Below, one piece after another: positions 5,511 to 61,814 of a stretch of DNA of 64,000 nucleotides. A model generated the notes under the pieces. The model was not told where the DNA came from and did no database searches. It saw nothing but the letters and a program-made list of their open reading frames with translations. Each line of letters opens with the position of its first letter. The stretch's first letter is position 1. Origin of the DNA: Medicago truncatula (taxonomy: Eukaryota; Streptophyta; Magnoliopsida; Fabales; Fabaceae); NCBI RefSeq assembly GCF_003473485.1, contig NC_053044.1:37762091-37826090 (forward strand), written 5' to 3'. The position numbers were made by a program, and so were the translations under genes.

Positions 5511-5561
5511 TAATACCTTGAGGTGTATGTTGTTATAACACATATTTTTAAAAATAAGTGG

Positions 5562-5720
5562 GTGTATGTTAGCAACTCCTATAGACGTTTGTAGAATACA
5601 CCCACTTATTTTTTAGAAGGAGTATTTTAGCAAACGATAACTAAAAAAATGGTTAAATACACTCTAAGGTGTAGTTTGCTAAAACATTCATACATAAAAA
5701 CTAATGTTCTAGCAAATCTT
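5562..5720. repeat. Further diverged copies of the GCTAAAACA / ACACCCACT arm
   Basis: The arm sequence of the neighbouring inverted repeat recurs at least three more times in both orientations (around 5565, 5600-5640 and 5670-5715), each with GTGGGTGTAT or its complement close to TTTTAGCAAA. The block looks like clustered or nested insertions of one miniature family. Confidence 0.55.
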
Positions 5721-19266: not shown

Positions 19267-19408
19267 TATACAGAGAACAACAAAACACTATGATAAATTA
19301 GAAGAAAAAAAATTGACTTACAAAAACATAAAACTTAAAAATCTGTAACGTTTACAAGAAAAAAGCTTGTAAATAATCATGGTGAAAAGGGAATAACAGT
19401 AGAATAAT

Positions 19409-20505
19409 CATGGTGAAAAGGGAGACCGTGTGTCAGATGGTGGACATGATGCTTCCTATTGGTGGCGTTTTATCGCTGCTCTTCGTAGGGAGGGGTGGTT
19501 TAGTAATCATGTCAGTCGGGTGGTGGGAGATGGTAAATCAACATTGTTTTGGTCAGATGTTTGGGTTGGTGGAGTTGCTTTTAGGGACAGGTTTAGCAGA
19601 CTGTTTGACTTGTCGTTGTATAAAGAGGTGTTTGTGCTTGTTATGAGTCAGTTGGGGTGGGGGGAGGGTGGAGAGGCGTGGAGGTGGAGGCGGGGGCTGT
19701 TTGTGTGGGAGAAGGAGCTGTTGGGGGAACTCTGTTTATTACTTCATAATGTGAATTTGCAGGTTGATAAAGAGGACAAGTGGTTGGGGCGTTTGGAATC
19801 GAGTACTGTTTTTACTGTTAGGAGCGCTTATAAACTGCTGGTTAATCAGAATAACACGTTCACAACAGTTTCTCCGAAGGATCTTTGGCACAAAGATATT
19901 CCTCTTAAGGTCGTTCTTTTTGCTTGGCGCCTGATTCATGACAGGTTGCCGACTAAAGATAACTTGCTTCGTCGTAGAATTATAGGTCCAGATGATGGCT
20001 GGTGTGTGGGTGGTTGTGGTATGTTTGAAACTTCCCCTCGTCTATTTTTACATTGTCAATTCTTTGGAAAAATTTGGCACTTTATTCATCTTTGGTTGGG
20101 GGTCTGCTCGGTCATCCCTAATTTGCCAACGGATTACCTCAACCAGTTTGGCTTTGTTGGTGGCTTTTGTTCCAAGAGGCGGTTGTCTATTATGCAGTTG
20201 ATTTGGTATGTGACGGTGTGGGAAATTTGGAAGGAAAGAAATAACATGATTTTTAAAGGAAAAGAATGTTCAACATATCAGATTGTCGACAAAATTAAGT
20301 CTCTTAATTTTGCGTGGTTGAAGGCGAAAATTCCAAATCTCTCTTTCAACTACCATGTTTGGTGGCTTAGTCCGTTCAATATGTTGGGCATTGGTTAATG
20401 CTTTTTCTTTCTCTGTAATTTTATTTTTGTTTGTCTTTTCTTTTCCTTTGTTCATATGATTGTGACTTTGTTCTTCCTAGCACACCTTCAAAAAAAAAAA
20501 AAAAA
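19409..20505 (+). mobile_element. 5'-truncated L1-type LINE with 14-bp target duplication
   Basis: The body encodes the C-terminal end of a plant LINE ORF2, open from about 19430 to 20398 (322 codons from the first ATG). It includes the zinc-binding reverse-transcriptase module (IPLKVVLFAWRLIHDRLPTK, then a C-x3-C-G...H-C pattern) and the WWLSP...LGIG end. A 3' tail and poly-A (20490-20505) follow. AACAGTAGAATAAT flanks the insertion perfectly (19395-19408 and 20506-20519). The RT catalytic domain is missing, so it cannot move by itself. An intact frame and perfect duplication point to a fairly recent event. Confidence 0.9.
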
Positions 20506-21240: not shown

Positions 21241-22163
21241 GACTAATGTGTAAAGAAAGTCATACAAATTTACAACTATGGGAGATTAGTTAATTAGGTT
21301 GCCCAAATATCAATATTTTTGTCATTAAAAAAGAGTTTTACCGAACATTGTTTTCATATTGCCATTGATGCAAAGTATTTATTGACTTTGTTAATATTAG
21401 ATGCGAGAATGACTTATTAGATGTATCATAAGTCTATTTGTAAGGTATGATATGACTTTTTGTAAAAGTCTAATGAAGTCTAAAATGTTTGTTTGAAAAG
21501 CATGCATGCTTCACTATTTTTTTAACGAAATCCTACACCATGAGTTATGTGGGGTAAACACTTTCGTAAATCGACTAACAAACTAATAATGAATGGAATG
21601 ATAAAAGTCAATAAAATCAAGTTTTATTTTGAGATAGAACATGACTGTTTAGAGAATCTAACTTTAAATTACATCATATTTTAAATTTTATTTTATAAAA
21701 TATTTTTAAACATGTCAAAAATTAATGTAGATTATTATGTTTAAATTACATTGGCAAATTGGTGACTTTATACACTATACAATTTAATATAATAACAGTA
21801 ATAAAAATATTATTTATTTATTTAAGGAAACCAGTCAGATAAATTTGAAAGGTTTTTTCATTAGTAAGTAGCCTAACTTTTTAGCTTTATAAATTTCTAA
21901 AAAAAAAAAGGACTTCTCTGTTTTTAAAAATAAAAATAAAAATCTAACATGGCTTGGAGCTGACGTGAGCTAGGAGACCATAATTTCTTATCAGTCGATC
22001 TGATCTATTTTCAACCCTGTACATGACCAATGATGAGAATAATGAAACCATTCAAGAATGTGTAATGGATGGCAGTAGCCTCCGCTAGCCAGGCATCGTG
22101 CACTTAATGAACTCTTCCTCCACCACCCATTTTGATATATATTTCATCAGTTTATTTTTAGTT

Positions 22164-22542
22164 GGGGTAATAGTCATTTTTGTTCCTGAAGGTGTAATGA
22201 GTAGTTGCAATAGTCCTTAATGTATCAAAATTAAAAAACGGCCATTGATTATGCATTATGTTAGATAAAATAGGCACTTACAATAAAATACTTCGTTAAT
22301 ATTGTCATATTAATCAACCCAATTTGGTTCGTCTGATGGTGCTAACTCGAGACCTTCAACATACCTACTTATTGACATATAAGTCTCTATAAATATTTTA
22401 CTTAGTGTCATATCAATCCCTATAAGTCAGACTATTTTGACTAACAAAGTGCACAATCATATACTATTTTAAGATTTTGATACACTGAGATATTGTTGTA
22501 GTTACTCGTTACACATTTAAGGATCAAAATGACTATTATCCC
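22164..22542. mobile_element. Inverted-repeat element, probable Mutator-like MITE
   Basis: GGGGTAATAGTCATTTTTGT at the left is mirrored by GATCAAAATGACTATTATCC at the right, with GTAATGAGTAGTTGCAA / TTGTAGTTACTCGTTAC further in (about 60-bp arms). Flanks TTTTTAGTT and ATTTTAATT match at 7 of 9 positions, which fits an eroded 9-bp duplication. Confidence 0.65.
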
Positions 22543-22566
22543 ATTTTAATTATTATTTTAAGGTTT

Positions 22567-25325: not shown

Positions 25326-25810
25326 TTATCGAGTTGATTGTCGGTTCGAGTTTTAAAACTATGATTTAATTCAATAAAGTGATATAGAAAAATGCTATTG
25401 AAAAACATAAAGTGACATTTTGTTTTTGTACCAAAAAAAAAAAAAAACATAAAGTGACATCAATACGGGACATTTATACCATTGTGTTTTTGCCACTTTC
25501 TCTTTCTTAACATAGAGGAGAATTTTTGGAACACAAGTTGTATCATTAATCAATTTCACTATTTAGCTAACCACATAAATGTACGTTGTTAACCACTTTT
25601 TAACAAATAGCTCATTAACCACAAAATGCAAAGTATTAATCTCTTATTTTACATAAATCTACATATATACTTTAGTCATTTTTTAGCAAAGGCGAGATTA
25701 CTGTATTTCATTCATAATAAGAGAGTACATAGTAGTTTATTAAAAAAATAGAGTAAATAATAGTAGATACATCATAGAAAACAAAGGGGTGAAGATGAGA
25801 TAAGGCGGCT

Positions 25811-26200
25811 CTAACAATAATATGAGCAAACCTTATTTACTTGCCTCCTAACAAACGACATCATAAAGTCGTGATTACTTGACAAAATATTTTTACACCG
25901 AATCACAAAGTCTTCAAATTCATTGAGGAGAGTAGTAGTAGTGTAGAGTGCATTCACTAAAGATCTACTGTCAGTTTCAAAGATAACATCATGCATACCA
26001 TTGAAAACTGCCATCTTCATTTCTTCTAGCCATCCAATGGTTTCCACTTCAAGAACAGTAGCGGAAATTTGCAAGTAATATGATTTTCCAAGTAAAAACT
26101 GTCTTAGTGAATCTCTAAAGCACATACCATATCCTAAGATAGAATGTTGTTGAAAATAGAAGCCTCCATGTTGCACTTGATCGTATCATTTAGAGGTTTC
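25811..26200 (-). pseudogene. RNase H domain fragment (LINE-derived)
   Basis: The minus-strand frame reads KCNMEASIFN (start of an RNase H domain), then LEVETIGWLEEMKMA, ETDSRSLVNAL and MSFVRRQVNKV, matching the order of the plant RNase H-like family (first acidic strand, E helix, D in ETDS, VRR..N). The first part is frameshifted relative to the rest and the C-terminal AH motif is lost. It is a second independent relic, about 1.2 kb from the one at 23755-24640. Confidence 0.65.
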
Positions 26201-29200
26201 GTCCATGAGAGCTCCACTTGCGGCCTCCACGTCCCCCTTTTGCATGCAGCTCCACTCGCGGTGAACATCATTTTTATTGTTAGTGACTTACATTTTTATG
26301 GTAAATGAAGTAATCAAAATGATTGAATTTATGTTAAAAAGTGGTTAACAACATTCATTTTGTTATTAATATATATTTGAAATTAGTTAATGACACAATT
26401 CAAATTTGATGTTATAAAAATCCTCCTCTATATTAATTTTATTTATTTATTAAAAAGCATTGTTCATCATATAAATACAACACTGCATGTGTCCTGTGAA
26501 ATAAAATCTCAAGTGAAACGAAATACAACCTCGGGTGAAATAAGTTCACACCAAATCAAAATTACAGTAGAATTATAACAAAATAGTTATACATGTATCA
26601 ATCAATCAAAACATGTATTAGTAGCATCTCACATTAATTTTTTTTAATATCATCTTAAAAAAAAAATTGAGTATCATCTTCTTTACAATTTTTTGCTGCA
26701 AAATCAATAATAATTTTTTTATAATCAATATTATTAAAAAATTATTTTCAATTAAAATTGAAGGCAAAATTATTTAATCTATTTTGTGGTATTGTAAATT
26801 GTAAATATGATGATTTTTTTAAAAATTTTAAGTTATGCAAGCATAATGAATCCTAAAAGACTCCTTAGAATATTTCTTTATCAAAATTTAATATTTTTGA
26901 GTAAACAAACATTCCATTTCATTTACAATCATATCAACTCCACCAATACCATTTGCAAAATCAAATTCTCTCTATTTTTAAAGTGATTAATCAAACCTTT
27001 ACTATTGTATATCCACATCAATATGCATGATTCAGATTTTATAGCGACTTATCTACATACATGTGACCACATCGTGGTCCTCGTCATCAAATTATGAAGA
27101 TTATGACAATGATGACATTAATGAGTATTGATTCTATTGCATTTGGATTTTATAGCGACTAATTATCTATATACTTGTGACCACATCGTGTCTAAAATTT
27201 TCGTATGACTCAGATAATTAGTCGCTATGTTTACATTTTATTATGACTCAGTAATTTATTTATTACTGCAATTTATTTATGACCAAGTTTTGTTAACTTA
27301 CATAACTTAAAAGATAAATTGACCAATTTTAAAGTTAAGGGATCAAACTGAACTTTAAAATATGCTAAGGATCAAAGTTAAATTAAATTTTTAAAATAAG
27401 TTAAGTGACCAACATTAATTATAGCAAAAAACTAATATAGATTTTAACATTATAATTTGGAGAAGGAAAAAAATGATTATTTTGGTAAAAAATAAGAGAG
27501 AAATATTATATATAACAAATTTTTTTTTTTTTTTGTGAAGAATATAACAAAATGATATTAGAATCATTAAATTTTTTCAAAATATAAATGGATTAGTAAC
27601 TAATTGGAGCTTCTTTTCCTATAAAAAAAATAAAAAAATAAAAAAAATTGGAGCCTTTTAATCATAGAATAATATCATATATGTAAATTTAGTTGCGATA
27701 TTTCTGCTACATAAAATATTAGAAATTCAATAAAAATTTAAATAAAATATTGGGTTTAGGGTTTAGTAAACTTTTTTCTTATTTCTTTTTTGACAGATTT
27801 TAAATATTTAATATAGCTAACTATGCATAATCCTCATTGATAATAAGAACATGCACCGCCACCAATGAGTAATAATCAAGACATGGATAACCTCATGGCT
27901 TTTCTATGTGCTATATAGGAGGATATTTCATTTCGTTTCCTTCACCATGTTTTCCTGCTGTTACCCATTTAATTATCTAATAGACTAGCTTGCATATATA
28001 AAGAAAAAAAAAAATCATCATACTACTATTTTTATATAGTGTTTTGCTTCAACTTTAAGTCATTAGCTAGTGGAAATCTATAATTAAGAAAGGGACGCCA
28101 ATAATAAGGACACTAATAGAGACAAACTTCCATCTCGATCGCTAGATTATTGCATGTTGGATCAATGATATTATCTGGATTTCATGGGGTCTCAAAACAA
28201 ATGATTTTAGCTCGTTGATCTCTCTTTCCCGACAAGTGTCTTATTGGACCAGATCTTCCCTGAAAGTCCAACATGTCAATTTTGCTGGATTTAAAAGAAG
28301 GGTCATGCTAACCGGTGTTTTCGAGAAACTGATTAAAGATGTTGAAATATTTTATTATTTTATTATTTTTCGATATCATTACGTGGGCAAACATCATAAT
28401 AATAATTATATTAACTATTTATCAATTGTGAGAATTAATTGATTAGTAATTGAATTAAGTAATAAGACTATTAAATTTTTAATTGGATAATTAATTAAAT
28501 ATTTAATTAATTGATATGAACTCAAGTAGAAAACAATGAAATATGTGATTATTTAGATGATGACTAAAATTATTAAAAGAATTCCGCAAAAATTTCTGAA
28601 TTATCTAGGTATCAATTATGAGTGGATGGATGTCTCGATGATCCATTAACAAAATAATGGAAAACCTTAATGGTAAAACTCTCTCATCTCCTCGTATGAA
28701 GAGAACTTGAGGCATGAAAGTACCGGTTGAAGAATAACCAAATAAGTCGCCGCTAACCCGTTCTTGTGTTTTCATAACAAATCACCTCCTCTGTGTTTCT
28801 GACTGTTGCTGTTGAGAGGGTTGCCATGAAAGCTTAATTCAGGTATTCCTAATACCCTAATTCTTAATATCCTTTATAAATCAAATATGTCGTAGATCCG
28901 ATCATAATCATGTTCAATGTTTTGTTTGCTTCCGCTAAAGATAAATCTATCATATTTAAGACCCAAATTCCCAACAAAAGGATACAAAAAACGGAAGTTA
29001 TTACTAAAAAAGAAACTTTGTTGACTTTTTATGAATTGATTACACAACTTTCAATGTAATAACTACTGTATAATTTCATTTTTTATTATCCTTAACCAGT
29101 GCCTTGGAGACATCGGTTAACATTTCCCTTAAAAGATAGAGTGCGGTTTGTTTGTAGATATTTTCAAAGGATTATCAACACGTATTCTTGAAAATTGAAA

Positions 29201-29280
29201 GTTAAGAAGAAAAAAAATTAACGTAGGATCTATGTATAAGAAATGGAAGCCTTTGGCTCCACTAAGATTTCAATAATATA
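26201..29280. other. Intergenic DNA without recognised gene
   Basis: No ORF here shows a domain. The only structure I see is the repeat at 27034-27235. Confidence 0.4.
27034..27235. repeat. Duplicated and inverted ATAGCGACT units
   Basis: GATTTTATAGCGACT followed by GTGACCACATCGTG occurs at 27036-27076 and again at 27146-27190. A reversed copy (AGATAATTAGTCGCTAT) follows at about 27213-27229, so a small inverted-repeat element carries a partial internal duplication. Confidence 0.6.
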
Positions 29281-29400
29281 CTCCATCTGTTTCAAAATAT
29301 AAGTAAATTTTATTTTATAGGTTCATTTAATTAATGATGTATCTGGTTCATATCATAAAATTTAAAAAATAAAATTTACTTATATTTTGAGACGAAGGAG
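29281..29400. mobile_element. Stowaway-like MITE
   Basis: A 120-bp element with ends CTCCATCTGTTTCAAAATAT and ATATTTTGAGACGAAGGAG, flanked by TA on both sides, as expected of Tc1/mariner-type Stowaway elements. The arms run to ATAAGTAAATTTTATTTTAT. Confidence 0.85.
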
Positions 29401-29696
29401 TATTTCATTGCAATTAGGAATCTCGACCATTCTTTTTCTTCCGCTTGAATTTTGTTTCAATGGTCGAAAGCGGAAGTTTGTTAGTTCTTAACTTGAGTGG
29501 TTGCCTAGCATATGCTCAAATTCAATACTTAGATCGATATATAAGATGCTAGACATTTGTTAATAGACTAAAAAAAAATTATCTTAAAAATTGTGTATTT
29601 GACTTATAGAAATACCAAAAAGTAATTTTTTTCTACATAAAATTTAACAATTTTTTCCTTTTTTTGAATCCTTAACTAATACCCTTATCATAACCA

Positions 29697-29895
29697 TATT
29701 AATGACGTGATAGTATGATAAGAGAGATATTGGATGAATGTATGAAATTTAGAGTTGTTTATTTATCATTGTTGTATAGAGTCAACCACATGCATATTTT
29801 TTTTAATTCTATACAAATATGATAAATAAACAAACAACTCTAAATTTCATACACTCATCCAACATCTCTCTTATCATACTATCACGTCATTAATA
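29697..29895. mobile_element. Inverted-repeat MITE with about 75-bp arms
   Basis: TATTAATGACGTGATAGTAT at the left and its complement at the right are almost perfect. Pairing continues through GATAAGAGAGAT, GTATGAAATTTAGAGTTGTT and TTTATCAT. TA-rich flanks (TATT/AATA) would suit a Tc1/mariner-type or similar element. The near identity of the arms suggests a recent insertion. Confidence 0.8.
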
Positions 29896-30548
29896 TATTT
29901 TTCCTCTTTGTTTCAAGCTGTAAACACCCACATGTGTGTAGTACACAAAACATTTCCAATTCCGGAAATGGTGGGACTAAAAGTATTTAATGAGAAAATC
30001 CAAGGGAGACAAGGATATGATTAGGAATGAATTCCGTGGTATTAAGTATAGGAGAAGGCACTGAAAATTTTCCACGCTTGAATTTGACAAATCATAGTGT
30101 GACCACCCACTACAAACCAAATACGTACCAATCACCTACTACAAACAAATTCCACACATCACAAGCAGAATGATCAATTAAAACACCCTCCAATTTTCAA
30201 CATCACTTTATTTAATGTTTTTGCCAATATTAAATTTTTCCAACCATAAAATTCACCTTAATTTCACAATGAAAAATGAACCATATTCCATCCTGCTAGG
30301 GCAAAATCACGATGACAAGTACAAAACCGTGTTTCACAAGTAATAACCATTTTCTTCAAAATTTGCGACTCACACATGTGTTGGCTGTTGCCATTAAATT
30401 AAGATATCATGTACTATGTCACACGATTTATCTCCCAAGCAAAAAATATTATAACAGAATTGAAACCAGTATTTAATGCATTCCTTCTTAATTAAACTCT
30501 CATATAACTTGATTTCGTTGCACATGCAGGAAAGAATGGGTGTTACTA

Positions 30549-32754: not shown

Positions 32755-32837
32755 GAGGTTACCAATATTTAATTTAATAAATCATACTTTGAAGAAAAGG
32801 AAAATAAAAAATAAAAAAACAAAAAAAGTTTATTCTC

Positions 32838-33590
32838 ATGGCTTTGTCAAGTGTCAAGAAAGAAATCAACGAGACAGCCATTATAAGCCTTGTAGAGGCT
32901 CTACCAGACGAGTTATTGGCAAATATAGTGGGAAAGGTTGCAACTTTCTCAATGGCTGATTTATTCAAAACCACATTGAGTTGCAAAGATTTTTGTAAAG
33001 CTTTAGAAGATCCTCATGTTTATCAACATGCAGCACTAGATAAATTTGCATTGATTCCACTTGCATGGTTCACCAGTGAAAAGGAAACCATGTTCTTGAG
33101 TCGTTGTAGGGAAATGGGTAATTTGGAGATTATTTACCGTGAAGGAATGGTGCAATATTTTAGCACTTTGATGGTGAATTTAGGTTTTGACAATCTGAAA
33201 AATGCTGCATTAGGGGGTCATCATGAAGCTAAATATGTATATTCTATGCTTTTGATGGCTAATGCTGAAAATGGAGAAGAAAGAAAATTAGGGTTTGATC
33301 TCTTTGGTGAACTGAAAAATTCATCGTGCATTAGTCTTGTGAGTTGCAGGAAGAGAGTGCAGTCATTTATTAAAAGCATGTGGTTGAGAAATTCGGTGGT
33401 GGTTCAAAATCAAGAATTGTCTTTGTGTTGTTCTAGCACATGTCAGAGCGGTGGTGGGACAGAAAAGGTGGTGAAAAAACATTCACTATGGAGGCAAATT
33501 GATGAATTTGATAATGATGTTAGTTTTTCATGCAAATATTGCGACGGGAATCATGAATTGGGTTTATTTTGTAAGTTGTTTCAAGTCTAA
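32838..33590 (+). CDS. F-box protein (At1g67623-like type), single exon
   Basis: An uninterrupted 250-residue frame. Residues about 15-60 (SLVEALPDELLANIVGKVAT...DLFKTTLSCKDF) form an F-box, starting with the LP-D-LL core that binds SKP1 in SCF ubiquitin ligases. Then come helical repeats (NLEIIYREGMVQYF, AALGGHHEAKYVYSMLL) resembling Sel1-type helices, as in the small plant F-box family around At1g67623 and At2g35280. The C-terminus has a CX2C...C pattern (SFSCKYCDGNHELGLFC). The likely role is substrate selection for ubiquitination in nucleus or cytoplasm; the substrate is unknown. A well-placed TATA box and a clean stop support a real gene. Such genes duplicate often, so expression is not guaranteed. 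Confidence 0.85.
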   Translation: MALSSVKKEINETAIISLVEALPDELLANIVGKVATFSMADLFKTTLSCKDFCKALEDPHVYQHAALDKFALIPLAWFTSEKETMFLSRCREMGNLEIIYREGMVQYFSTLMVNLGFDNLKNAALGGHHEAKYVYSMLLMANAENGEERKLGFDLFGELKNSSCISLVSCRKRVQSFIKSMWLRNSVVVQNQELSLCCSSTCQSGGGTEKVVKKHSLWRQIDEFDNDVSFSCKYCDGNHELGLFCKLFQV

Positions 33591-36223: not shown

Positions 36224-36316
36224 CTCTCTATCCTAATCGGGCATTGATATGTTTGACTGATTATAAATGCACGCGCGAGCTAGTACATCGTGTGACTTTT
36301 TCTTACTTCAATCATA

Positions 36317-36464
36317 CTTCCTCCGGTCCTAAATGTAAGAGAAGATTCATTTTTTAGGTTCATTGAATAAATGATATATTTAGTTTATATTATAGTCCAA
36401 ATTCATTAATAATTTAATGAACCTAAAAAAAAGATTCTTCTTTTATATTTAGGACCGGAGGGAG
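36317..36464. mobile_element. Stowaway-like MITE
   Basis: CTTCCTCCGGTCCTAAATGT and ATATTTAGGACCGGAGGGAG are the terminal repeats, bounded by TA on each side. Inner arms pair AGGTTCATT with AATGAACCT. 148 bp. Confidence 0.88.
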
Positions 36465-36466
36465 TA

Positions 36467-38600
36467 TTCACTTATAAAAATAAAATAGAAAAAAAAAAAC
36501 CTTTTTCATATAACGAAAGAAAATATGTCAAAAACTTGATGTGATTTGCTCGAGTAGTCCTTTGGATTTATGTGTCAAAGAGAAGTTATGCTACATATTG
36601 ACCTCACACACAAGGTTAGATAGATAATTAATAATAGAGAAACTTTGCCCCTTAGTTTTTTCAACCGTAATTTTATTCGCTTCAAGTGATTAACACCGAA
36701 GAGGAACTTTGCCCCTCAGTTTTAGTTTGCCTAACTTCTCGAGTTGCGTGTTAGGTATAACTATTTTTGGGTTTGAGGTACACCAAGAAATACATAAATA
36801 AAAGCAAAAAGATACAAGGATAAAATTGCAAAAATAAGTTTGTTTGGATGTTAATTACAATGTATGAACATAATATTTAGTGTGGCTATTATCTATTAGC
36901 CAAACAATATGACCTACATTGCTTAACATCTATTTGGCTAATTTTCGTGGGTTTGCATAATAGCTCCCTTTGTAGCGGGATTGTGGTGCCCCACGTTCAT
37001 CTTCTGTGTCCTCTCTTTGGCATGATTTGTTTGACAATGTCCCTTTCTGCAAAGGTCCATATTATATCTTGTCTTCCCCCTCAAACTTCAAAACAATTAT
37101 TAGTGTTGAGAGCAAAGCTCGTAGGTTTCACGTCATTGTCCAATCCCATTATGTTTTTTACTCAATTTTTGGCCCTTAACGACACATATATTAAGTTGGT
37201 GGCCTAGAGAAAGAATCATTTTCCTAGCTTGATTGCCCTAGCATCGTTTATCCTTTACTCAACTAAGGAGCCTCCTCACCTGATTGATTGCTCAATCACA
37301 TATTTTTTTCGACTAATAAGATAATTATTTTTTGGTGTAAACAATTACATTCTTTAATGCATAAATAGAGTGCATGTGCATCTAACCAATTGGTTGGTGG
37401 TTTTGTAAAATTTGGTCTTAATCTCCGCTCTGATTTTAGTATTGTTAAATGTTAAAGTATGTTCCAAGTTTAGGTTTTTTTGGAGTTTTTTTTTTTTTGT
37501 TCTTTTTTGTTTGTGGGGCTTGCCCCTTTATTTAAAGAAAGTCAAATATTTATACGTTAATTTTTGCCCCTAATAAATAATCATTTTGAAAAAGAAAAAT
37601 TATATTTACTTGTTATATCATTTCGTCAGAAAATGAAGATAAAAATTCAAATTTGTTCAATTTTTTTATGAAGTTAAATTAATCAACTGAAATTGACATC
37701 AGAAATAATCGAATGTAAACGTTGAGATGAACTCAAATCTTTTTCATATAATGTTATTTATAACAATATTTTTTTGGAGTTTTTTATAACAATGTATTAG
37801 AAAATATTCAACATCGTTATTCAATGACCAATCTTTGTTGAAAAAAATCTTTTAAACACATACGATGAATTCTCTAAAGTTAAATCAAAGTTTTCTTTGT
37901 ATGTAAAAGTTATAGATCAAATTTCTAACCACCACTTATTCAAAGTGTCCGGGTTTTTTTTACAACTATTGTATCAATACAATTTACTTAGAATCTTTTT
38001 GTATATTGTAACAAAAAAAAAAAGAATCTTATCGTATTGATACCACTTATTAAAGTTGGTCTACAAAATGATACTCCCTCCATATTTTTTTAGGGGATAC
38101 TCTTCTGTATTTTATTTTATGTTAGTTTGGAGAAAATTTGTGACAAATTATAAATAATTTTATAATACTAATAAAATATTGATGTTATTTTTTTTATCAT
38201 ACCGTTTATTAATTGTTCATATGACACAATAAAAGAGAAATTGTGTAAGCCAAATGTTCAAACTTTTTTTATTTGGTTTAACCGCTATTATTGGTATTAT
38301 TATTATTTTATTAATTAATAATTTTTTGAGAGATTTTATTTATTTATTTGATGAATGAGAGATTTTTAACTATTTGTGCAATTTTTTACAAAATGTATCA
38401 TCTAAATATGGTGAAAGTAGAAGGATGAATGACATTTATAATTTTCCCTTGCATCTCTAAAGTCCAAAATAGATCGGTAAACTATTGATAGCCTCAAAAG
38501 AATGTGAAAATGAACCCAACCAATATTATAAGCATAATTCATTTTTATGTTTCTTTACCGGTCAAAGAAAACGGTTATGGCTAGAAATAATTAAATTCAA
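36467..38600. other. Intergenic DNA upstream of the methionine sulfoxide reductase gene
   Basis: No gene supported. The ORF at 36947-37207 is slightly GC-richer but has no family likeness. 38070-38430 contains a worn Stowaway-like pair (ACTCCCTCCATATTTTT and a distant complement). A probable TATA string (TCTATATAG) lies about 40 bp upstream of the 38645 ATG. Confidence 0.4.
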
Positions 38601-44081: not shown

Positions 44082-46588
44082 TTAGGTCCAGATACAAACA
44101 ACTCCATTCTTGTCAGCTGAAGCTAAGGGTCTTCCGAGGCCACTCCATGTACAACAAAGGATAGAAGAAGTATGTTCCTTCAGAGTACCGACTATATCAG
44201 CTTTAGATGCTGACCAAACATAGACAGATCCATCTGATGATCCGGCAGCAACATTTTTATCATCCGGGCTAATACACGAGCGACTCCAATTGGAGGCCAC
44301 TCTATTTCCGGCGGCTTTCAGTGTGCCACTAACTTCTAGAGATCGCATGTCAAACAAATTGTGCAAATTGTCCCTTCCACTGGTTAGTACAACATTTCCA
44401 TTTCGAGAAAGAGATATTGATGTGACAGCAAGTGAGTGTGCTGCAACCTCGCTGAGTAGTTTTCCGCTTTTAATATCCCATAGTCGAAGATTTCCGTCAA
44501 CATGTCCAGAAAGTATGGTCTGTCCATCCGTGCTGAAGGAAAGAGCATTGCAGTTGCTGTGGAAAATGATTGTGTTAATGCAATAGCCTTTAAGCAAGTC
44601 CCAAACTTTTATAGTGCCGTCGTAAGCTGAACTGACGACGTGACGGCTGGAAACCTTGCTGACGTCAACGGCACAGACTTTATCCGTGTGGCCAGTAAGG
44701 GTATGATGGACACGACCCAAGTTGAGATCCCATGCATACAAGTTGTTTGAGCTGCTAGCAGCAATAACAGATCTATTATCGTTGGTGATTGCGAGATCTA
44801 ATACAGAGCCAAGGCAGCCATGAAGATTGGAAATTAAGGATCCTGAATCGGTATCCCACACTTTAACTGCTCGATCCTGTCCCCCGGTTATCAATTTATT
44901 AGAATTACACTCAAACAATATGGCAGCACAACCACCTTCGTGTGCTTGGAGCCTGTGTTTACATGTGGATGGGACAATTGACTGCAAAATGACATCGGCG
45001 TATTCTTCACCTTGGCGAACTATGCCATCTATCTGCTGTCTTGCAAGTTTTTCTAAACCACTGGCCTTTAGCTGCTTGATCATGTCATCATACAGTTGGT
45101 TTGCCTAAATTGATGGGAAATATATTAGTTAAAGCAGACCAATGAAACATTGAGAATCCATGCAGCTAATTATTAGATTTAAAAATATCAGTGTAATTTG
45201 TGAGGGTGCTACATGTAAAAAAAACTTGGATTACTTTGCAACAGTCACAAGATCATTTGACTCTGCATACAATCCAAATTTCACGCAATCAGAAAACAAG
45301 CTCGAAACTTGATGCAGTAGTGGTAGTAAAATGTAGCATAGTCAGGTAACTGACATCTACACCGAAGACGGTGACACCAATAGCAGATAGGAAGCAAGTG
45401 AACTAACTAAATTGTAATCTTATTATTAGCTGCTTTAACTTCATTACATGCCCTAGCCTAATTCATTCTCATATATTAAGTTTGTACAAATGACTGCTTT
45501 ATTTCAAATGTTCATATGGTGAATGTACATATATTATACCTCATTTAGTTGTTCAGCATTCTTCATTTTTTCTAACATCATGCGATCCACCAATGTCTTA
45601 TGTTCAATTTCAGCACTCTTGGCTCTAATAGTCATTTCCTCCAATTGTGTTTTAAGCTCTGTATTCTCACTTAGAATGATTTCATGAGCATTAATTTTGT
45701 CTTCTAAGTCCTTTTTCATTTGCTTGCACTCATCCCTGTAAATTTCAAGTCCCTCTATAAGTAAAATGCAGTAACTTCAAAGAAATAAAGGCACCTAACT
45801 TTTGGAATTAAAAACATAAAAAGGAAAATAAGCAACCTCATTGAAGTCAACTCTTTTTGCAAATCATCAACTGCAGTTTCTTTCTCTTGAATCACAGATT
45901 TCAAAGTTCTAGATTCAGCTATTTCCACAACAAGCTGCTCAGATACTCGGGATTGAGCTTTGTAGCATTGCTGAAGTTCCATTTCCAGACTCTCTGCTTT
46001 CTCTTTCCATTCAGAGGCCTATAATGACACAAATACAACATTTAACTCGGTAAAAGCATTCCAATATTTAGATACAGATTGTGATCCAAGTAACAACAAT
46101 AACACTGACAATAAGCAGCATCCGCAACTATTAATACACTTGCCAATTTTTTGTTTCCAAGAACAGTATACCCTTATCTGGGCTTGAACCGAGTACCTCA
46201 CGATTGGAGTATAAATATCCAACCAAGAGATCTCACATGAGCGGTTATACGCTTACCAATTTGCAATAAGAAACATGTAACAACGACAATTAGGCTATGT
46301 TTTGATAAACGGCTCAATTAAGTGACTATAGCATAAGCGCTTATGGTATCAGTGCTCAAGTATAAGCTATTTCTATAACAAAATATAAAATAAAGTCAAA
46401 TTTTGATCAATTTCAAAAAAAAAAAAAAAAAACTCTAAAACAAAGCACATAAAAGATACCTGAGAAACAATAGGTCTAGAAAGAGCAGCAAAAGCAGCAG
46501 CATGAGCTCCTTCTTCGTTCAAATGCCGCTTTCTCAGAGCCCTGAAAGCATGCTTGATAGCTTGATTTGCAATTTCTTCCTTCGCCAT
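44082..46588 (-). CDS. ATG16: Autophagy-related protein 16 (coiled coil plus WD40), 4 exons
   Basis: Exons 46588-46460, 46018-45837, 45735-45540 and 45104-44082 join in frame into 509 residues, the usual plant ATG16 length. The N-terminal helix (KHAFRALRKRHLNEEGAHAA) is the ATG5-binding region. Residues about 45-175 form the dimerising coiled coil (KAESLEMELQQCYKAQS onward). About 220-509 hold seven WD40 repeats ending in KVWD, AWD, KVWD, RLWD, NLFD, YVWS and CIWT. ATG16 binds ATG5-ATG12 and directs ATG8 lipidation on growing autophagosomes. An in-frame ATG three codons upstream (46597) is possible. I chose the second because plant homologues start close to the EEIA motif. A SINE sits inverted in intron 1. 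The four exons include one very large WD40 exon. Confidence 0.96.
46150..46251 (-). mobile_element. tRNA-derived SINE (family 1) in ATG16 intron 1
   Basis: Read on the minus strand it contains GAGATCTCTTGGTTGGATAT and the B-box-like GGTTCAAGCCC, matching the SINE at 10351-10450. CTTGCCAATTT (46139-46149) and CTTACCAATTT (46252-46262) are an 11-bp target duplication with one mismatch. It lies in the sense direction of ATG16 transcription. Confidence 0.75.
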
Positions 46589-49469: not shown

Positions 49470-52400
49470 TCAACTAGCTCGAATTCTATCCAGCCAGTCG
49501 ATGCTCTTCCGCGGTCTCTCAAACTGAACATCGACACTTCTTCTGGATTTCTCTTGGAATTCAATGCTTCTAGATTTGTCATTGTACTCTACGCTTCTTC
49601 TTGACCGCTCCGTCTGGTCAAATTGGACTCTTAACTTCTCTAATTTCTCAGGATTGTTGAATTTGAATTCATGATATTTCAGTTTTTCTGACTTATCAGT
49701 ACTTCTTGGTGGTTTGTCTCTGTGATCTGTGCTCTTCCTTGGCTTTTCTGAGCAATCAGTACTTCCTCTGGATTGTTCAACCCTATCCACACTTCTTCTA
49801 AAACTCAGTCTTTGGGATGGTGACTTTTCTACCGTTGATATGAATTTTCTTAGATGTCTAAGGTATTCTGGATAGAGCTCCAAGTTACAGTGGTTTCCAT
49901 CTTTGAGCCATAAAGGTTCATATTTCTGTTGGCATAGCTCCCATAAATGCTTTCCATGAGAGCAATCAACAACCTCATCAGCAGTTCCCTGGAGAAAATG
50001 CAAGAATGATGCCAAATTAGTGAACCAATATGAAATGCTCTGTACCCAAAAAACAACCTAGAGAAAAGCAATATTTGCTGAGTTACATAATTCACAAGAA
50101 TACAACTGAGGAAGTTTATATTGGAAAAATTAGACATAGAATTAAGATTAAATAATAAATTCAGAATAGATATCAACACAAATAAATTGACTCTAAATAA
50201 AACGAATTGAGTATAAGAAACTTATCGATCTTAATGAGTGAGGCATGTGGGCTTAAGAGTATTTTGCCGCCACGGATTAGTTATCCGGTGCAAGAGTATT
50301 AGCTGTGAGGCCAACTGCTCCGGATGACTAATCCATGGCGGCAAAATACTCTTAAGCCCAATGCTCTTTGCACGCCTCAGTAAGATCGATAAGTTTCTCA
50401 TACTAAATTCATTTTATTTAGAGTCAATTTATCTGTGTTAATATTTATTCTGAATTTATTATTTAATGATAATTATATGTCTAATTTTTCCAACAATCTT
50501 AAAAGTATTGACAGAATTATTATTATAAAGAATACATAATACTTGTTATTAATTCTTATTTCAGAATTCTTTATACTGTTGAATGAGAATTTATGAGCAC
50601 TAACCCGTTGGGACTATTTTGATGAAAAACTACGAGGGATGCACCAGGAGTTTAATTAAAGAAATTGATTTTATATATAATGGAGGTTAACTTTCTGAAA
50701 GCCATATGTTTACTCTTATATCTAATTATGTTTTATCTTGGTGAATTGGAGGATGCTTGTCAAATCTAATTTTTCCAACAGTTTAATCAGCAACAAAGGC
50801 TGTTTCTTTTCAACTTTGATGCTGTAAAACCAGCCACAATCAACAGGTTCCCACTTGTGAAAACTAGCTTATTTAAGAAAAATGACGTTCTATATTTATC
50901 AACCTTAAAATCAGCATTTCTCTTGCAGAAATATGCAATGAAAATCAGCATTTCTCCTGCAGAAATATGCAATGAAAATTATGAAAATTATCAACCTTAT
51001 CATAATTTTCATTGCATATTTCTGCAGGAGAAATGCTGATTTTAAACAACAATGTGCAGGTTGCTTGTATAGAAGAGATTATATTTATCAGTATGAACAC
51101 TAAGCTAGCGTACTGAGTAAGCACCAAATTAAAGACCACAACCATTATCAAATCAGTTAATTGGATACCATTACATGCTGACAGCAACAACATAAATTAC
51201 AGTGACAAAATATTAGACGGTGGAAAATCGAACAAAATAAACATGAAATACTTACATGAATCACTAGCACTGGACACTTCACCAACGGAATTTTATCAAT
51301 GTTCTACACCACAACACAGAATGAAATTCAGTTACATAATACATGATTCTCAAAGCAAAGGACATCAAATACATAGGATGGTGAAAAATCTAACCTTATA
51401 GATGTCAAACCAGTATGTCCTTTTCACCGGATACATCACTCTCAACCCCGATAGTATAGGACTATGGAGAACAACAGCCCTCAGTCGGGGTAATCGAGCA
51501 GCAAGATCCAAAGTAGGACCACTCCCAACAGATTGACCATAAAGGATTATATCTTCCTGCTTAGCACCATAGTTCTCTTCGAGACACTTATATACAGCTT
51601 CAATGTCAGCATACGTATTATGCTCACTTGGCTGTGAAAATATCCGTTTTTCATTATGCTTCTCCTTGCTAAGAACAAAAGAATGAAATAAACCAGAAAG
51701 AAGCATATAAGGCAGTTACCTTCCCTGACGACTGTCCATAGCCAGAGTAATCGTATCTGCATGCATAGAAACAAGATGCTTGAAAACATAATTAACATAC
51801 ACCATATAATTTTTTATAACAAACACAACACAACAGATATATGATAAGCAAGCAACCTATTTTAAAGGGGTCTTTAGGGTATGTTTGGATGAGGGTTTTG
51901 GAGGAGAGGGGAGGACTTTTCTTTATTAAATTAAGGACACTGTAAAATGTTTTCAAAAATAAATTGAGTGTAATTAGAGTATTGTACGGATCATTTATCA
52001 TGTTTTTTCAAGAAAAAATATCAAATATATTTCAAAATACAGATTATCCCTCCAAAGCCCTCCCATCCAAAACTCAACTCCCAAGCATACCCTTAGATTG
52101 ATTCTAAAAGGTGAGGATCTAACGAGTACGGTCTCCAACATTACTCTTACTCGTGAACTCCCTTATCTGTGCCTCAATACACTATTTTTTGCATGTTAAA
52201 GTTTCTTTTACCATCCTTTCAAAAAAAAGTTTCTTTTACCATATGAAAGTAACATTCAAGAGAAAAAATAAGACTCAAATTAAAGGCAGAATGTGAATAT
52301 GTGAACTCTGCATGTTTGGATGTGCATCCTCGGTATATCAAGAATCCAAAGTGTTAGTAATACTTAGTACGGAAACAAAGTTTACAGTTTCATCTGTTAT

Positions 52401-55829: not shown

Positions 55830-55983
55830 CACCCTCTGATCATTATTATTATAAGTAAAATTTTGTATTTTATATTTATTTAATTAATGATGTATATGAT
55901 TTTGATTATAAATCATATACATCATTTAATGAATGAATCTAAAATGTTAATTTTTGTTTATAATAATGATCGGAGGGAGGGTG
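55830..55983. mobile_element. Stowaway-like MITE
   Basis: CACCCTCTGATCATTATTAT at the left and ATAATAATGATCGGAGGGAG...GTG at the right, TA outside both ends. Inner arms pair TTAATGATGTATATGATTT with AATCATATACATCATTTAA. 154 bp. Confidence 0.8.
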
Positions 55984-56352: not shown

Positions 56353-56706
56353 ATGATTTGTATTTTCATTGTGTTGATTCTGAAAATGGGTAATCCTAAA
56401 AAACATAATGACTTGAAGTCTATCTCTTTGATTAGCTGTGTATATAAAGTGTTAGTTAAAGTGTTGGTAAATAGACGAAAATGGGTCATGTTATTTCGGA
56501 ATTTCAATTTGTATTTGTTAAATGTAGATAAATTTTGGATGGTGTTGTCATTGCTAATGGGGTTATAGATAAAGTTAAGAAGAGAAAGAAATAACATATT
56601 TTATTTAAAGTTGATTTTGCAAAAGCTTATAATTTAGTCTATTAGAGATACTTGGATTCAATGATGAAGAGCAATAACATCTAGTGTTGAAGATGGAACT
56701 TGGTGT
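56353..56706 (+). pseudogene. Decayed LINE reverse transcriptase, part 1
   Basis: Across frames the sequence reads ILKMGNPKKHNDLKSISLIS, CVYKVLVKVLVNRRKW, VISEFQFVFVKCR-stop, ILDGVVIANGVIDKVKKRKK, LFKVDFAKAYNLVY and RYLDSMM, in the exact order of the plant L1-type RT domain (fingers to palm). Several frameshifts and stops are present. It runs up to the border of the Mutator-like element at 56716. Confidence 0.85.
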
Positions 56707-56715
56707 GTGTTAATT

Positions 56716-57524
56716 GAGTTCATCTTTGTTCCATTTAGGTTTGCTCCATTTACTCCGTTTACCATAATAGATGTGTGACATGTGGTAAAATAGAAAATCA
56801 AAGGCTGAGATTAAAAGTGTTAGAAAAAACACCTGTTTTATCAAAAACAAGGCTACGCGCGTTTCTCTATCAGATCATGCACGCTCTTCTTCTTCCTCTC
56901 ACCACATCACTTCACGGCTTCTCTCTCTCCTCCGCCTCCTCCCAACCTAACTTCGCCGTCCTCCGTCTCGTCGTCGAACCCTCCATCTCCGATCAGATCC
57001 AGCAAGCCGCCGCCGTCAACTTCAAAAATGGCCTTTGTCTTCAATGGTATTCTCAGTACCGCGAATTCAATTTTTAAGAAATTTCGTTTTCAGTATAAAA
57101 CTTATTATTTACCGCTTGATTTGAAATATTGTTTGGATAATTTTGCTACTCCTTTGCTTGAGATATTTCTCAAAATTAGAGGGTGAAATTAAATGATGAT
57201 GAGATCTGAAGAGAGAGTTATGGATGACGTTACCACCACAATGATAAGCAGCAACCTACGAAGATTGAGTTTGATAATTAATGATAGAAATGGAAAATGA
57301 AATAATAAAAAGAGTGATGAAAGTCTGATCCGTTCTTTGCCGGAGAAGTAACCCTGGATAGATATGAGAGAGAAACGTGTGTAGCTTGTTTTTGATAAAA
57401 CAAGTGCTCTTTCCAACACTTTTAATTTATCACAGCTCTTGGTTTTCTATTTTGTCACATGTCACACATCCATGATAGTAAATGGAGTAAATTGAGCAAA
57501 AATAAATGAAGCAAAGATGGACTC
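56716..57524. mobile_element. Pack-MULE A: Mutator-like element with captured gene fragment
   Basis: Long terminal inverted repeats (about 160 bp, starting GAGTTCATCTTTG and ending CAAAGATGGACTC) are flanked by a 9-bp duplication, GTGTTAATT (56707-56715) and GTGTTAGTT (57525-57533), one mismatch. There is no transposase. The interior is GC-richer host-type coding DNA (56860-57180). 9-bp duplications and long TIRs with gene cargo define Pack-MULEs. Element B at 57686-58514 shares the same TIR family. Confidence 0.85.
56860..57180 (+). pseudogene. Captured exportin-2 (CAS/CSE1) fragment inside Pack-MULE A
   Basis: 56943-57030 encodes [18 protein letters not shown] then [11 protein letters not shown], which matches the N-terminal HEAT-repeat region of plant exportin-2, the nuclear exporter of importin alpha. 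From 57030 another frame reads [20 protein letters not shown] then [10 protein letters not shown] and PLLEIFLK, which in the parent lies roughly 80-90 residues further on. So two parent segments are fused with an internal deletion and a frameshift. It cannot make exportin. A short Ser/Pro-rich protein from ATG 56775 would be possible. Confidence 0.8.
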
Positions 57525-57685
57525 GTGTTAGTTAAGTCAATGTAGTGAACAACTTTTGAGACTGTTTGTTAATGGAGGAAAATTACATTAAAAAGGACTA
57601 AAAGCTACACTAGACTATTCTTATAACAAACTAATTTCTTCATTCATTCCATTTCATAATGATCACAATGACCAATCACTTATTT

Positions 57686-58514
57686 GAGTTCATCTTTGCT
57701 CCATTTAGGCGTGCTCAATTTATCCCATTCCAAGACATAGATGTATGTCATGTGGCAAAAACAAATTCAAGGGTTGAGATTAAAATGTTAAAATAGAGAA
57801 TGATCCATGGGATTCTTCTTCCTTCCTCAAATTAACTCCATCGCTACCTTTCTCTCGCTGCCCCTTACCTTCCATCCCAACCATTCTCTCGCTGCCCCTT
57901 ACCTTCCATCCCAACCACCAGAGATCAGTTGCTGGAAAAAAAAATATACCAGAAAGAGAACCCAATGTTTTAAGAACAAATCAACATCATGGTTTTCCAA
58001 TTATTTATTTTTTCTGTTTTTTCTTCTGTTTTCATTTTCTGGAATTTATTTCCCTTTTTATCAATTTAGGCCAATTCATTCCAAGTGAAGAGAGTTCCAA
58101 TTCAACAAAAATTCCAATTAATTTCATTCTGATCCATTCAAATTTATCAATTTCACAGTGAGAGGTTGGTTGTTTTCATTCACCCAAATTTCAAAACTAG
58201 ATTACGACAGAGAAGAAAAGGGGAAGATGGGGAAGAGAGTCATGCTGGGCGGGAGGAAAGGGGGCGCCGGTGATGGTGACGGTGATAGTGACAGTGCCGG
58301 CGAGGAGAAGGACAGGGGCAGCTATGATCATAGAGAGGAAGATGGAAGGGTACGTTACACAGAGAAAGAGAAGAGTGTTTTTTGTTTTTACTAAATAAAG
58401 TATAATTTTTTACTATTTAATCTCAACCCTTGAATTTGTCTTTGCCACATGTCATACATCTATGCCTTGGAATGGGATCAATTGAGCACACCTAAATGGA
58501 GCAAAGATGAACTC
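57686..58514. mobile_element. Pack-MULE B: related Mutator-like element, perfect 9-bp duplication
   Basis: The left end GAGTTCATCTTTGCTCCATT is mirrored by the right end AATGGAGCAAAGATGAACTC. CACTTATTT lies perfectly on both sides (57677-57685 and 58515-58523). The TIR family is the same as element A. The interior has a 34-bp tandem duplication (57851-57884 and 57885-57918, one mismatch) and a GC-rich coding-like part at about 58230-58350 (GGAGDGDGDSDSAGEEKD). I do not recognise the source gene. No transposase. Confidence 0.85.
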
Positions 58515-58739
58515 CACTTATTTATAGCATTGACATTCTAACAACTTAATCAATGACTCACAATCACTATGATAGATTTCTCTAGATCATTCTATAAAAC
58601 TATGACTCACCTCTAAAATATCTAATACAACTAATTCATCATAATCTTTACCTATTTGAACTTTTCTATTATATTTGACCTATTTTGGGTCATTACAGTC
58701 AATGTCCAAAGAGTCCTGCTCAATAATTTTCTCTTAATG

Positions 58740-59005
58740 TAGAATCATCATCTTTCTCCTTCTCCATTTTTAATAGTTATTGAGAGCCTTAACTCTGTTA
58801 AAGTGGTTGTAAAAGGTGGTAGATTCTTGGGCGTTCCTGTTGGTGTAGAGAGCAAGTTTAGAGTGTATTATCACCTTTAGTTTGCTAATGATCATGATAC
58901 TTTGATTTCAAGTAAAAATGTTGGGCTAATATCAAAGCTATTAAGGTGGTATTGTTGTTACATTTTAAAATGATCTCAGACCAAAAATAAATTTCCGTGT
59001 GTTTC
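58740..59005 (+). pseudogene. Decayed LINE reverse transcriptase, part 2 (FADD-like region)
   Basis: Frames give LSPSPFLIVIESLNSVKVVV, KGGRFLGVPVGVES, a broken FAND-DTLISSKNVG (the [FY]ADD catalytic turn) and then ISDQK-ISVCF. This continues the RT domain of the fragment at 56353-56706. Between the two lie Pack-MULE A, Pack-MULE B and an unidentified AT-rich stretch. Together they suggest one old LINE cut apart by later insertions. Confidence 0.75.
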
Positions 59006-59096
59006 ACAATATACAAAGAAAAAAATTGAAGAAATTTGTAATACTTGTTAGTATTTTTGTTCATAAATAATACTTGTACAAGAATAATAAAATTTA

Positions 59097-59581
59097 GGGT
59101 TAAATATGTTTTTGTTCCTTATAAATATACAAACTTTTCGTTTTAATTCCTCCAAAATTTTCTTTCAACTTTTAATCCCTATAAAACTTTCAATCACTAC
59201 TTTTGGTCTCTCTTTTAAAGTAAACTCATATGTAAAATTTATATTTTAAATAAAAAAATTTAGAAAAATTCTTAATATTATAAGAATAGCTCCCTAAAAA
59301 AATTAATTTTTTTTAACAAAACTTGAATTTAATATGAATTTTTACATTTTTTATGGTTAAAAGTTCATATTAAATTTGTGTTTTGTTAAAAAATTCTAAC
59401 TTTTTTGTGTTTTTTTTTACAATATTCTACACATTTCTGCACAATTTCATTAAAAAAATATAAAAAATAACTTAAAAATAGGGACTGAAAATTTTATAGA
59501 GACTAAAAGTTGAAGGAAAATTTTAAAAGAAATAAAACGAAAAGATGGTATATTTATAGAGACTAAAAACATATTTAACTC
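59097..59581. mobile_element. Mutator-like MITE, 9-bp duplication
   Basis: GGGTTAAATATGTTTTTGTT at the left is mirrored by AAAACATATTTAACTC at the right, with arms of about 100 bp (ATAAATATAC, CTTTCAACTTTTAATCCCT). TAAAATTTA lies on both sides (59088-59096, 59582-59590). The TTAAATATGTTTTTRGTCCC end is, to my knowledge, very common in legume genomes. Confidence 0.8.
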
Positions 59582-60096
59582 TAAAATTTATAATTTCGGG
59601 TATCTGACGACAGCCGGTCCACATAACTGGATTAACTTCTTTTAAAAAAAAATAAAAAATCAACATTCAAACAAAGGTGAATGAATTTTCAACATTATTT
59701 TACAGTTATTTTTTAGTTCAGACAATTAATTTTTAAAAGCCAGTGCAAAGCCTGTTGGCGTACGTACGAGTGTGGTCACAAAAACACACGAGTCCCTTGT
59801 CCATCTCTTTCAAGTTGCAAATTGCAATATTATCAACAAAAAAAAACTGAAATAGTCTGTCTAAATGTTTGGTTCCACTTCTACATAAGGCAAAATTGAT
59901 TATGAAGATGAAAAATTAATTCTAACATATTTGATTGCTTTTAAGTAAAATTGATTTTATCTTTAGAATTAATTACCTCTGAAGTTAAGATTTAAGATTT
60001 GTAGTTTTTTATCAATTGATTTTTAGACATAAAGTTAAAATTCAATTCACTTTTATATAAATGTATTCAAACACAAATTACTTTATCTTCAACTTA

Positions 60097-61814
60097 TTGG
60101 AAATAAAAGTTGGGCTAATGTGCGGGCGCTGAGGGCTGGTCTTGTTTTGTTTGAAGCTATGTTGGGATTGAAAGTAAACTTTCATAAGAGTTCTCTGGTA
60201 GGGGTTAATATTAATGATTCGTGGTTGTCAGAAGCGGCTTCTGTGTTGGGTTGCAAAGTAGGTAAAATCCCGTTTCTCTATTTGGGGCTCTCGATTGGGT
60301 GTGATCCGCGTCGACTTTTGTTTTGGGAACCTGTTGTGAATCGTATTAAATCTAGATTGTCTGGTTGGCAAAGTCGGTTCCTTTCTTTCGGTGGTCGTTT
60401 GATTCTACTAAAGTCTGTCCTGACTGCTCTACCTGTCTATGCACTTTCCTTTTTTAAAGCTCCGTCAGGTATAATCTCTTCCATTGAATCTTTGTTTAAT
60501 AAATTTTTTTGGGGAGGGGGTGAGAAAAAAAGAAAAATATCTTGGGTTAGATGGGATACTTTGAGTATGAGGAAGGAGTATGGAGGGTTGGGGGTTACGA
60601 GGTTGAGAGAGTTTAACATTGCTTTGTTGGGTAAATGGTGTTGGCGGTTGTTATTGGAGAGGGAGGCTTTGTGGAGAAAGGTGTTAGTGGCTAGGTATGG
60701 TGTGGCGGATGGAGGTTTGGAGGATGGGGGCGGGAGTTGTTCTTCGTGGTGGAGGGAGATAGTGAGGATTAGAGATGGGATAGGTGAGGGTGGAGAGGGA
60801 TGGTTTGGGACGTGTGTTAGGAGGAGGGTGGGAGATGGTGCAGACTCAGATTTTTGGCGTGATCGTTGGTGTGGAAATGTTCCACTGTGTGTCCGGTTTA
60901 GGCGCCTTTTTGACTTGAATGTTATCAAATCAATCTCAGTTAGGAATATGTTCTTGTTGGGGGTGGACATGGGTGGGGAGGCGTTGCGGTGGCGTAGGCG
61001 GTTGTGGGCTTGGGAGGAGGAGTTGGTAGAGGAGTGTAGGGTTTTATTACTAACAGTTTCTTTGCAGGAATCAGTGTCAGACAGATGGCTTTGGTTACCT
61101 AATCAGGATGGTGGGTATTATGTACGTGGAGCCTATGACATGCTGACATCACAGGAGCAGCCCCAGTTACATCATAATATGGAGTTAATTTGGCATAAAC
61201 AGGTTCCTCTCAAAGTATCTATCCTTGCTTGGCAACTTCTGAGAGATCGATTACCTACAAAAAATAATTTGGCAAACCGTGGCATTTTACCTTTGGAGGC
61301 GCGGTTGTGTGTTTCTGGATGTGGGAACGTTGAAGATGTTAATCATTTGTTTTTGTCTTGTGTAACTTTTAGTGCATTATGGCCAATGGTGCGGGCATGG
61401 CTAGGAGTGGTAGGGGTCGACTCTCAATCAACTTCAAATCATTTTTTGCAATTTATTAATTACGCAGGTTGTTCGAGAGGGCGACGGTCTTTCTTCCACT
61501 TGATTTGGTTGCTTTGTGTTTCGGTGTTGTGGAATGAAAGGAATGATAGGATTTTTAGAAATAGACAAAGTATTTTGCCACAAATGCTAGATAAAGTGAA
61601 ATCAACTTCTTTGTGGTGGTTAAAGGCTAACAATGTTGTATTTAGTTTTGGTACTCATCAGTGGTGGTCGAGCCCGCTTTTATGTCTGGGTATTGACTGA
61701 TTTGGTTGTAATTTTGTTTGGACCTTGACATTTTCGTGATTGTTTGGCACGCCTTGTGCGGTAACAATTACGGTGTCCGTGTTAATATATCTCATTTTTG
61801 CTTGTTCAAAAAAA
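60097..61814 (+). mobile_element. 5'-truncated L1-type LINE with 17-bp target duplication
   Basis: An unbroken coding frame runs from the left border (KSWANVRALRAG...) to 61700 (LCLGID-stop; 526 codons from the first ATG). It begins just after the catalytic FADD turn of the RT, then thumb (LKVNFHKS, FLYLGLSIG, LSGWQSRFLSFGGRLILLKS), FFWGG, and the zinc-binding module (HKQVPLKVSILAWQLLRDRL, CGNVEDVNHLFLSC). A 3' tail and A8 follow. ACTTTATCTTCAACTTA is repeated perfectly at 60080-60096 and 61815-61831. An intact frame plus perfect duplication mark a recent insertion. Lacking endonuclease and RT core, it is dead on arrival. Confidence 0.93.

Follow-up and report, generated by a model that had tools for sequence, protein, structure and literature searches.

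A putative Pack-MULE carrying an internally deleted exportin-2 fragment in Medicago truncatula

Within a 64-kb stretch of Medicago truncatula DNA, called the window here, we identified an element (element 1) that is very probably a non-autonomous Mutator-like transposon, or Pack-MULE, with a captured and internally deleted fragment from the 5′ coding part of a plant exportin-2 gene (Table 1). Element 1 has long inverted ends, a flanking target duplication and a cargo that is exportin-2 in identity, in parental order and in two reading frames. An earlier note on this DNA had described it as a Pack-MULE with a rearranged exportin-2 fragment; its termini, its target duplication, its length and its cargo all support that description, and the bounds that it gave for the element are exact. 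We consider element 1 to be real but ordinary, gene captures by such elements being common in plants.

Table 1 Coordinates of element 1, its sister element and other features of the window
Feature	Position	Strand	Remark
Element 1 (candidate Pack-MULE)	56716-57524		809 bp; sequence read directly
Left terminal inverted repeat	56716..56876	+	161 bp; pairs with 57361-57524
Right terminal inverted repeat	57361..57524	-	164 bp; pairs with 56716-56876
Target site duplication, left copy, GTGTTAATT	56707..56715	.	8/9 identical to right copy
Target site duplication, right copy, GTGTTAGTT	57525..57533	.	8/9 identical to left copy
Exportin-2 piece 1, importin-beta N-terminal domain region	56922..57047	+	Residues 32-75 of the presumed Arabidopsis exportin-2 probe; frame of ATG 56877
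AATGG, common to both pieces, likely short-homology deletion junction	57043..57047	+	Overlap of two tblastn matches
Exportin-2 piece 2	57043..57174	+	Residues 153-196 of the presumed Arabidopsis exportin-2 probe; frame of ATG 57028
Interior between cargo and right end	57187..57360	.	One stretch scanned, no Pfam match
Element 2, related non-autonomous element	57686..58514	.	829 bp; related ends, other interior, perfect 9-bp duplication
Element 2 duplication, CACTTATTT	57677-57685 and 58515-58523	.	9/9
Palindromic stretches	6937-7320, 50121-50493, 59083-59595, 29696-29896, 36314-36467, 55832-55977, 29267-29414, 50941-51043, 5550-5613
WD40 beta-propeller coding stretch	44085-45104	-
Pectate lyase coding stretch	16613-17404	-
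Plant TPR_27 protein coding stretch	32838-33590	+

Terminal inverted repeats and target site duplications

The two arms of element 1 align with 82.4% identity over 165 columns (E 2e-40 in a self-comparison of the window), or 85% with gap columns excluded. Their alignment scores 109, whereas none of 200 mononucleotide shuffles exceeded 18. Both ends are directly bordered by copies of a 9-bp duplication, GTGTTAATT on the left and GTGTTAGTT on the right, which differ by one mismatch; in 200,000 random place pairs from this window, at least 8/9 identity at a fixed boundary was seen at a frequency of 3.6e-4. The long inverted ends and the imperfect 9-bp duplication had both been reported in the earlier note, and both hold.

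An excerpt of PMC3310237 describes Mutator-like elements as having duplications of 9-11 bp and ends of typically 100-500 bp, and Pack-MULEs as non-autonomous Mutator-like elements with genes or gene fragments. The duplications of element 1 and of its sister element fall in the first range, the ends of element 1 (161 and 164 bp) fall in the second, and the fragment of a non-transposon gene inside element 1 is that of exportin-2. Its non-autonomous nature is indicated by a length of 809 bp and by longest stop-to-stop frames touching the element of 112 and 120 aa, and no transposase family was among the Pfam matches of three scanned stretches of element 1. As no transposase was found and the family assignment is based on the lengths of the ends, of the duplication and of the whole element, a transposon of some other superfamily that also has long inverted ends and makes 9-bp duplications would suit as well. 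We regard this as extremely improbable, since ~160-bp ends with a 9-bp duplication fit the Mutator-like definition in the excerpt of PMC3310237, and since the 9-bp duplication of the sister element is exact.

The sister element (element 2) is separated from element 1 by 161 bp. Its own ends show 92.6% identity over 108 columns, or 88% when aligned globally over a greater length. The left ends of the two elements share 81% identity over 111 columns. A 9/9 duplication such as CACTTATTT is expected by chance at a frequency of 3.5e-5 (random place pairs, this window). The interior is unlike that of element 1 and contains a 34-bp tandem repeat at 57837-57917. Related ends combined with an exact 9-bp duplication constitute independent evidence of a mobile family with such ends, and the adjacent sister element strengthens the Pack-MULE reading of element 1.

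We also considered a composite of both elements spanning 56716-58514, and rejected it on account of the mismatch between the outer duplications, GTGTTAATT and CACTTATTT. With no match between the duplications at the outermost pair of ends (56716/58514), the two elements are separate units. End candidates at 47043/47347 and 48445/49137 were likewise discarded, with pairing of 17 and 20 versus shuffle maxima of 28 and 26; two members of the end family in the window remain after the shuffle test. An exact search of viral contigs with a 24-base stretch of the element 2 left end gave 0 matches. CpG decay was tried as an age signal for the ends and set aside, as no clear pattern emerged: between the two ends of element 1 there are 18 transitions, only 3 of them in CG context, and 6 transversions, and between those of element 2 there are 4 and 10, respectively.

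The exportin-2 cargo

To place the cargo on its parent protein, we searched the 64-kb window by tblastn with a 263-residue N-terminal sequence that we take to be that of Arabidopsis exportin-2 (CAS/XPO2/Cse1) and that underlies the residue numbering used here. Piece 2 matches with 73% identity over 44 positions (68.2 bits, E 1.5e-15 in this window) and piece 1 with 57% identity over 44 positions (47.0 bits, E 1.4e-8 in this window), the latter with a two-residue gap. Among the matches listed, these are the best two in the window, with 20.0 bits in third place, and 200 shuffled exportin-2 probes reached at most 27.3 bits. The earlier note had described two separated exportin-2 stretches in two frames and had made its reading depend on a significant match of the cargo to exportin-2; these scores bear out both points, the stretches being longer than it wrote (42 and 44 protein letters).

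Domain and structure databases point to the same protein. IBN_N was the sole Pfam family for 56880-57047 (E 0.0056, 17.1 bits, under the curated cutoff of 21) and Cse1 the sole family for 57028-57183 (E 1.5e-6, 27.8 bits, over the cutoff of 22). A PDB sequence search with piece 2 matched solely yeast Cse1 (1wa5_C and 1z3h_A, residues 141-182, E ~0.004), and the same search with piece 1, run twice, gave zero matches. The exportin-2 identity therefore follows from three routes, namely Pfam, PDB sequences (piece 2) and tblastn with a shuffled control. The two pieces keep parental order and orientation, on one strand and in different frames. Two neighbouring parts of one protein, ordered and on the same strand, make chance untenable as a cause, though piece 1 alone is a modest match.

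Exportin homology in 56880-56921, suspected by eye as parental sequence with CpG decay, was dropped: a frameshift-aware alignment for exportin upstream of 56922 scored 17, a value equalled or bettered by 181 of 200 shuffles (mean 20.5, maximum 35). Within piece 1, R-to-C and R-to-Q changes relative to the presumed parent fit C-to-T decay.

The tblastn matches of the two pieces overlap by 5 bases, AATGG, and residues 76-152 of the presumed Arabidopsis protein are absent between them. Assuming a parent of equal length in this region, ~236 coding bases would have been lost at AATGG, and since this number is not a multiple of three, the frame changes between the pieces. The simplest account is a deletion between short motifs that the two sides had in common, with the homologous bases presumed to exist in the parent; the deletion may predate capture, for example if the source was a pseudogene. 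The frame of ATG 56877 runs for 66 codons and that of ATG 57028 for 52 codons, each closed by a stop. Of the earlier claim that the cargo was internally deleted and frameshifted, the frameshift is directly visible in the frames and stops, whereas the deletion is deduced from the gap against the presumed Arabidopsis protein.

Between the cargo and the right end, Pfam gave no match on 57193-57297. A weak 73% match links 57257-57311 to 32760-32817 (E 0.001, low-complexity filter off), a resemblance that may be due to chance; the second of these stretches sits just ahead of the TPR_27 coding stretch. For a second captured gene, in this interior or in element 2, there was no Pfam match in the three stretches scanned, one from element 1 and two from element 2.

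The DNA around the two elements contains traces of reverse transcriptases. In the upstream flank, 56475-56681 matches RVT_1 in Pfam (E 0.0015, 18.7 bits, under the cutoff of 29.6), and 56389-56481, directly ahead of it, has no Pfam match. Further along, 58743-58925 shows reverse-transcriptase-like remains by eye, with no Pfam match, and 60039-61697 encodes a zf-RVT domain (E 5.3e-17). Elements 1 and 2 probably lie within or next to LINE remnants. Among the tblastn matches listed, strong exportin matches are confined to element 1, with none in the flanks.

These flanks bear on whether the cargo could be an exportin-2 pseudogene, processed or broken, that lies by chance between transposon ends or is enclosed by nested insertions. 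A frameshifted cargo and two related sets of ends within 1.8 kb are what such an origin might leave. Set against them are the 9-bp duplication directly abutting both ends of element 1, the outermost pair of ends whose duplications do not match, and an upstream flank that resembles reverse transcriptase, if weakly, in surroundings free of strong exportin matches among those listed. We therefore consider a pseudogene caught between transposon ends to be very improbable, and retain capture by a Pack-MULE.

Elsewhere in the window, a second zf-RVT frame is present at 19403-20395. Nine palindromic stretches of ~60-510 bp are 70-91% identical to their own reverse complement and are probably foldback or MITE-type elements, and inverted-repeat pairs at 25507-26436 (107 columns, 77%) and 22163-22543 (112 columns, 72%) may be other transposons. 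The leading sequence of the WD40 coding stretch presumably resembles the autophagy protein ATG16.

Predicted fold and possible use of the cargo

As the earlier note suggested, Pack-MULE cargo in general can yield chimeric transcripts, or small RNAs directed at the parent. The plus strand of element 1 has a predicted folding energy of -269.8 kcal/mol, compared to -171.9 kcal/mol (sd 7.0) for shuffled sequences (z -14.0), and 0 of 20 shuffles were as low. In the predicted fold, the right end is the pairing partner of 145 of the 161 left-end bases, whilst 0 of the 253 exportin bases are joined to either end. A read-through transcript would form a hairpin with the transposon ends as its stem and the exportin pieces in its loop. 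Since no exportin base is paired to the ends, dicing of such a hairpin would occur chiefly in the ends, and the silencing RNAs from it would mainly concern the transposon family. The modeled fold is mild evidence against the production of exportin small RNAs from a hairpin, which we consider unlikely; to regulate the parent, the element would more probably depend on antisense transcription.

Excerpts of two papers report Pack-MULE transcription and small RNAs in rice: 40% of Pack-MULEs are given as transcribed (PMC8277862), and 24-nt small RNAs cover the ends and interiors of related elements (PMC4858842). Such transcription and small RNAs, and the position of the Cse1 piece within an ATG-initiated frame, could be taken to mean that the exportin pieces are used, with small RNAs or the 52-codon peptide from ATG 57028 acting on the parent, either the gene or what it encodes. 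The cargo is short and frameshifted, however, and the predicted fold joins none of its exportin bases to the ends, so that we give use of the cargo only a slim chance. Its specific forms, in which antisense transcription from the right end would produce small RNAs against the exportin-2 messenger, or the Cse1-region peptide would hinder importin-alpha export, seem slimmer still. Most likely, element 1 does nothing for the host now.

Origin of element 1 and comparison with known systems

We propose that an exportin-2 5′ coding fragment was copied between inverted ends, probably by gap repair with a template switch; gap filling has been proposed as a capture route in an excerpt of PMC8277862. 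The ~236 coding bases would then have been lost at a shared motif of at most 5 bases, leaving the pieces out of frame. Insertion at the present site, by a transposase supplied from elsewhere, would have generated the 9-bp duplication, and the element would have decayed afterwards.

In the set of open-access papers searched, there was no report of an exportin-2 Pack-MULE. In the excerpts concerned, the co-mentions with Pack-MULEs were unrelated and came down to a mention of exportin-5/HASTY and to the word 'importing'. Likewise, no report was found in that set for Mutator-like elements together with 'cellular apoptosis susceptibility'. Element 1 offers a clean, checkable case of plant gene-fragment capture with later internal deletion, and shows two neighbouring sister elements whose ends are related but whose interiors differ. 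Excerpts of PMC4858842 and PMC10004981 already report more than 3000 Pack-MULEs in rice, so the general picture is unchanged.

Element 1 shares with Pack-MULEs the long ends, the 9-bp duplication, a size of ~0.8 kb with no room for a transposase, and a host gene fragment inside, and its sister element joins related ends to another interior. Nothing essential sets it apart from them; the cargo here is an internally deleted exportin-2 fragment. The animal Pack-TIRs described in the excerpt of PMC8277862 also hold captured sequence between inverted ends, with short shared motifs at the breakpoints. In contrast to these, element 1 is a plant element of Mutator type, and its shared motif was observed at the likely internal deletion, not at the capture breakpoints. 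Multi-TIR MULEs, as presented in the excerpt of PMC3310237, similarly have several related end copies close together, whereas the four ends found here belong to two complete elements, 161 bp apart, each with its own duplication.
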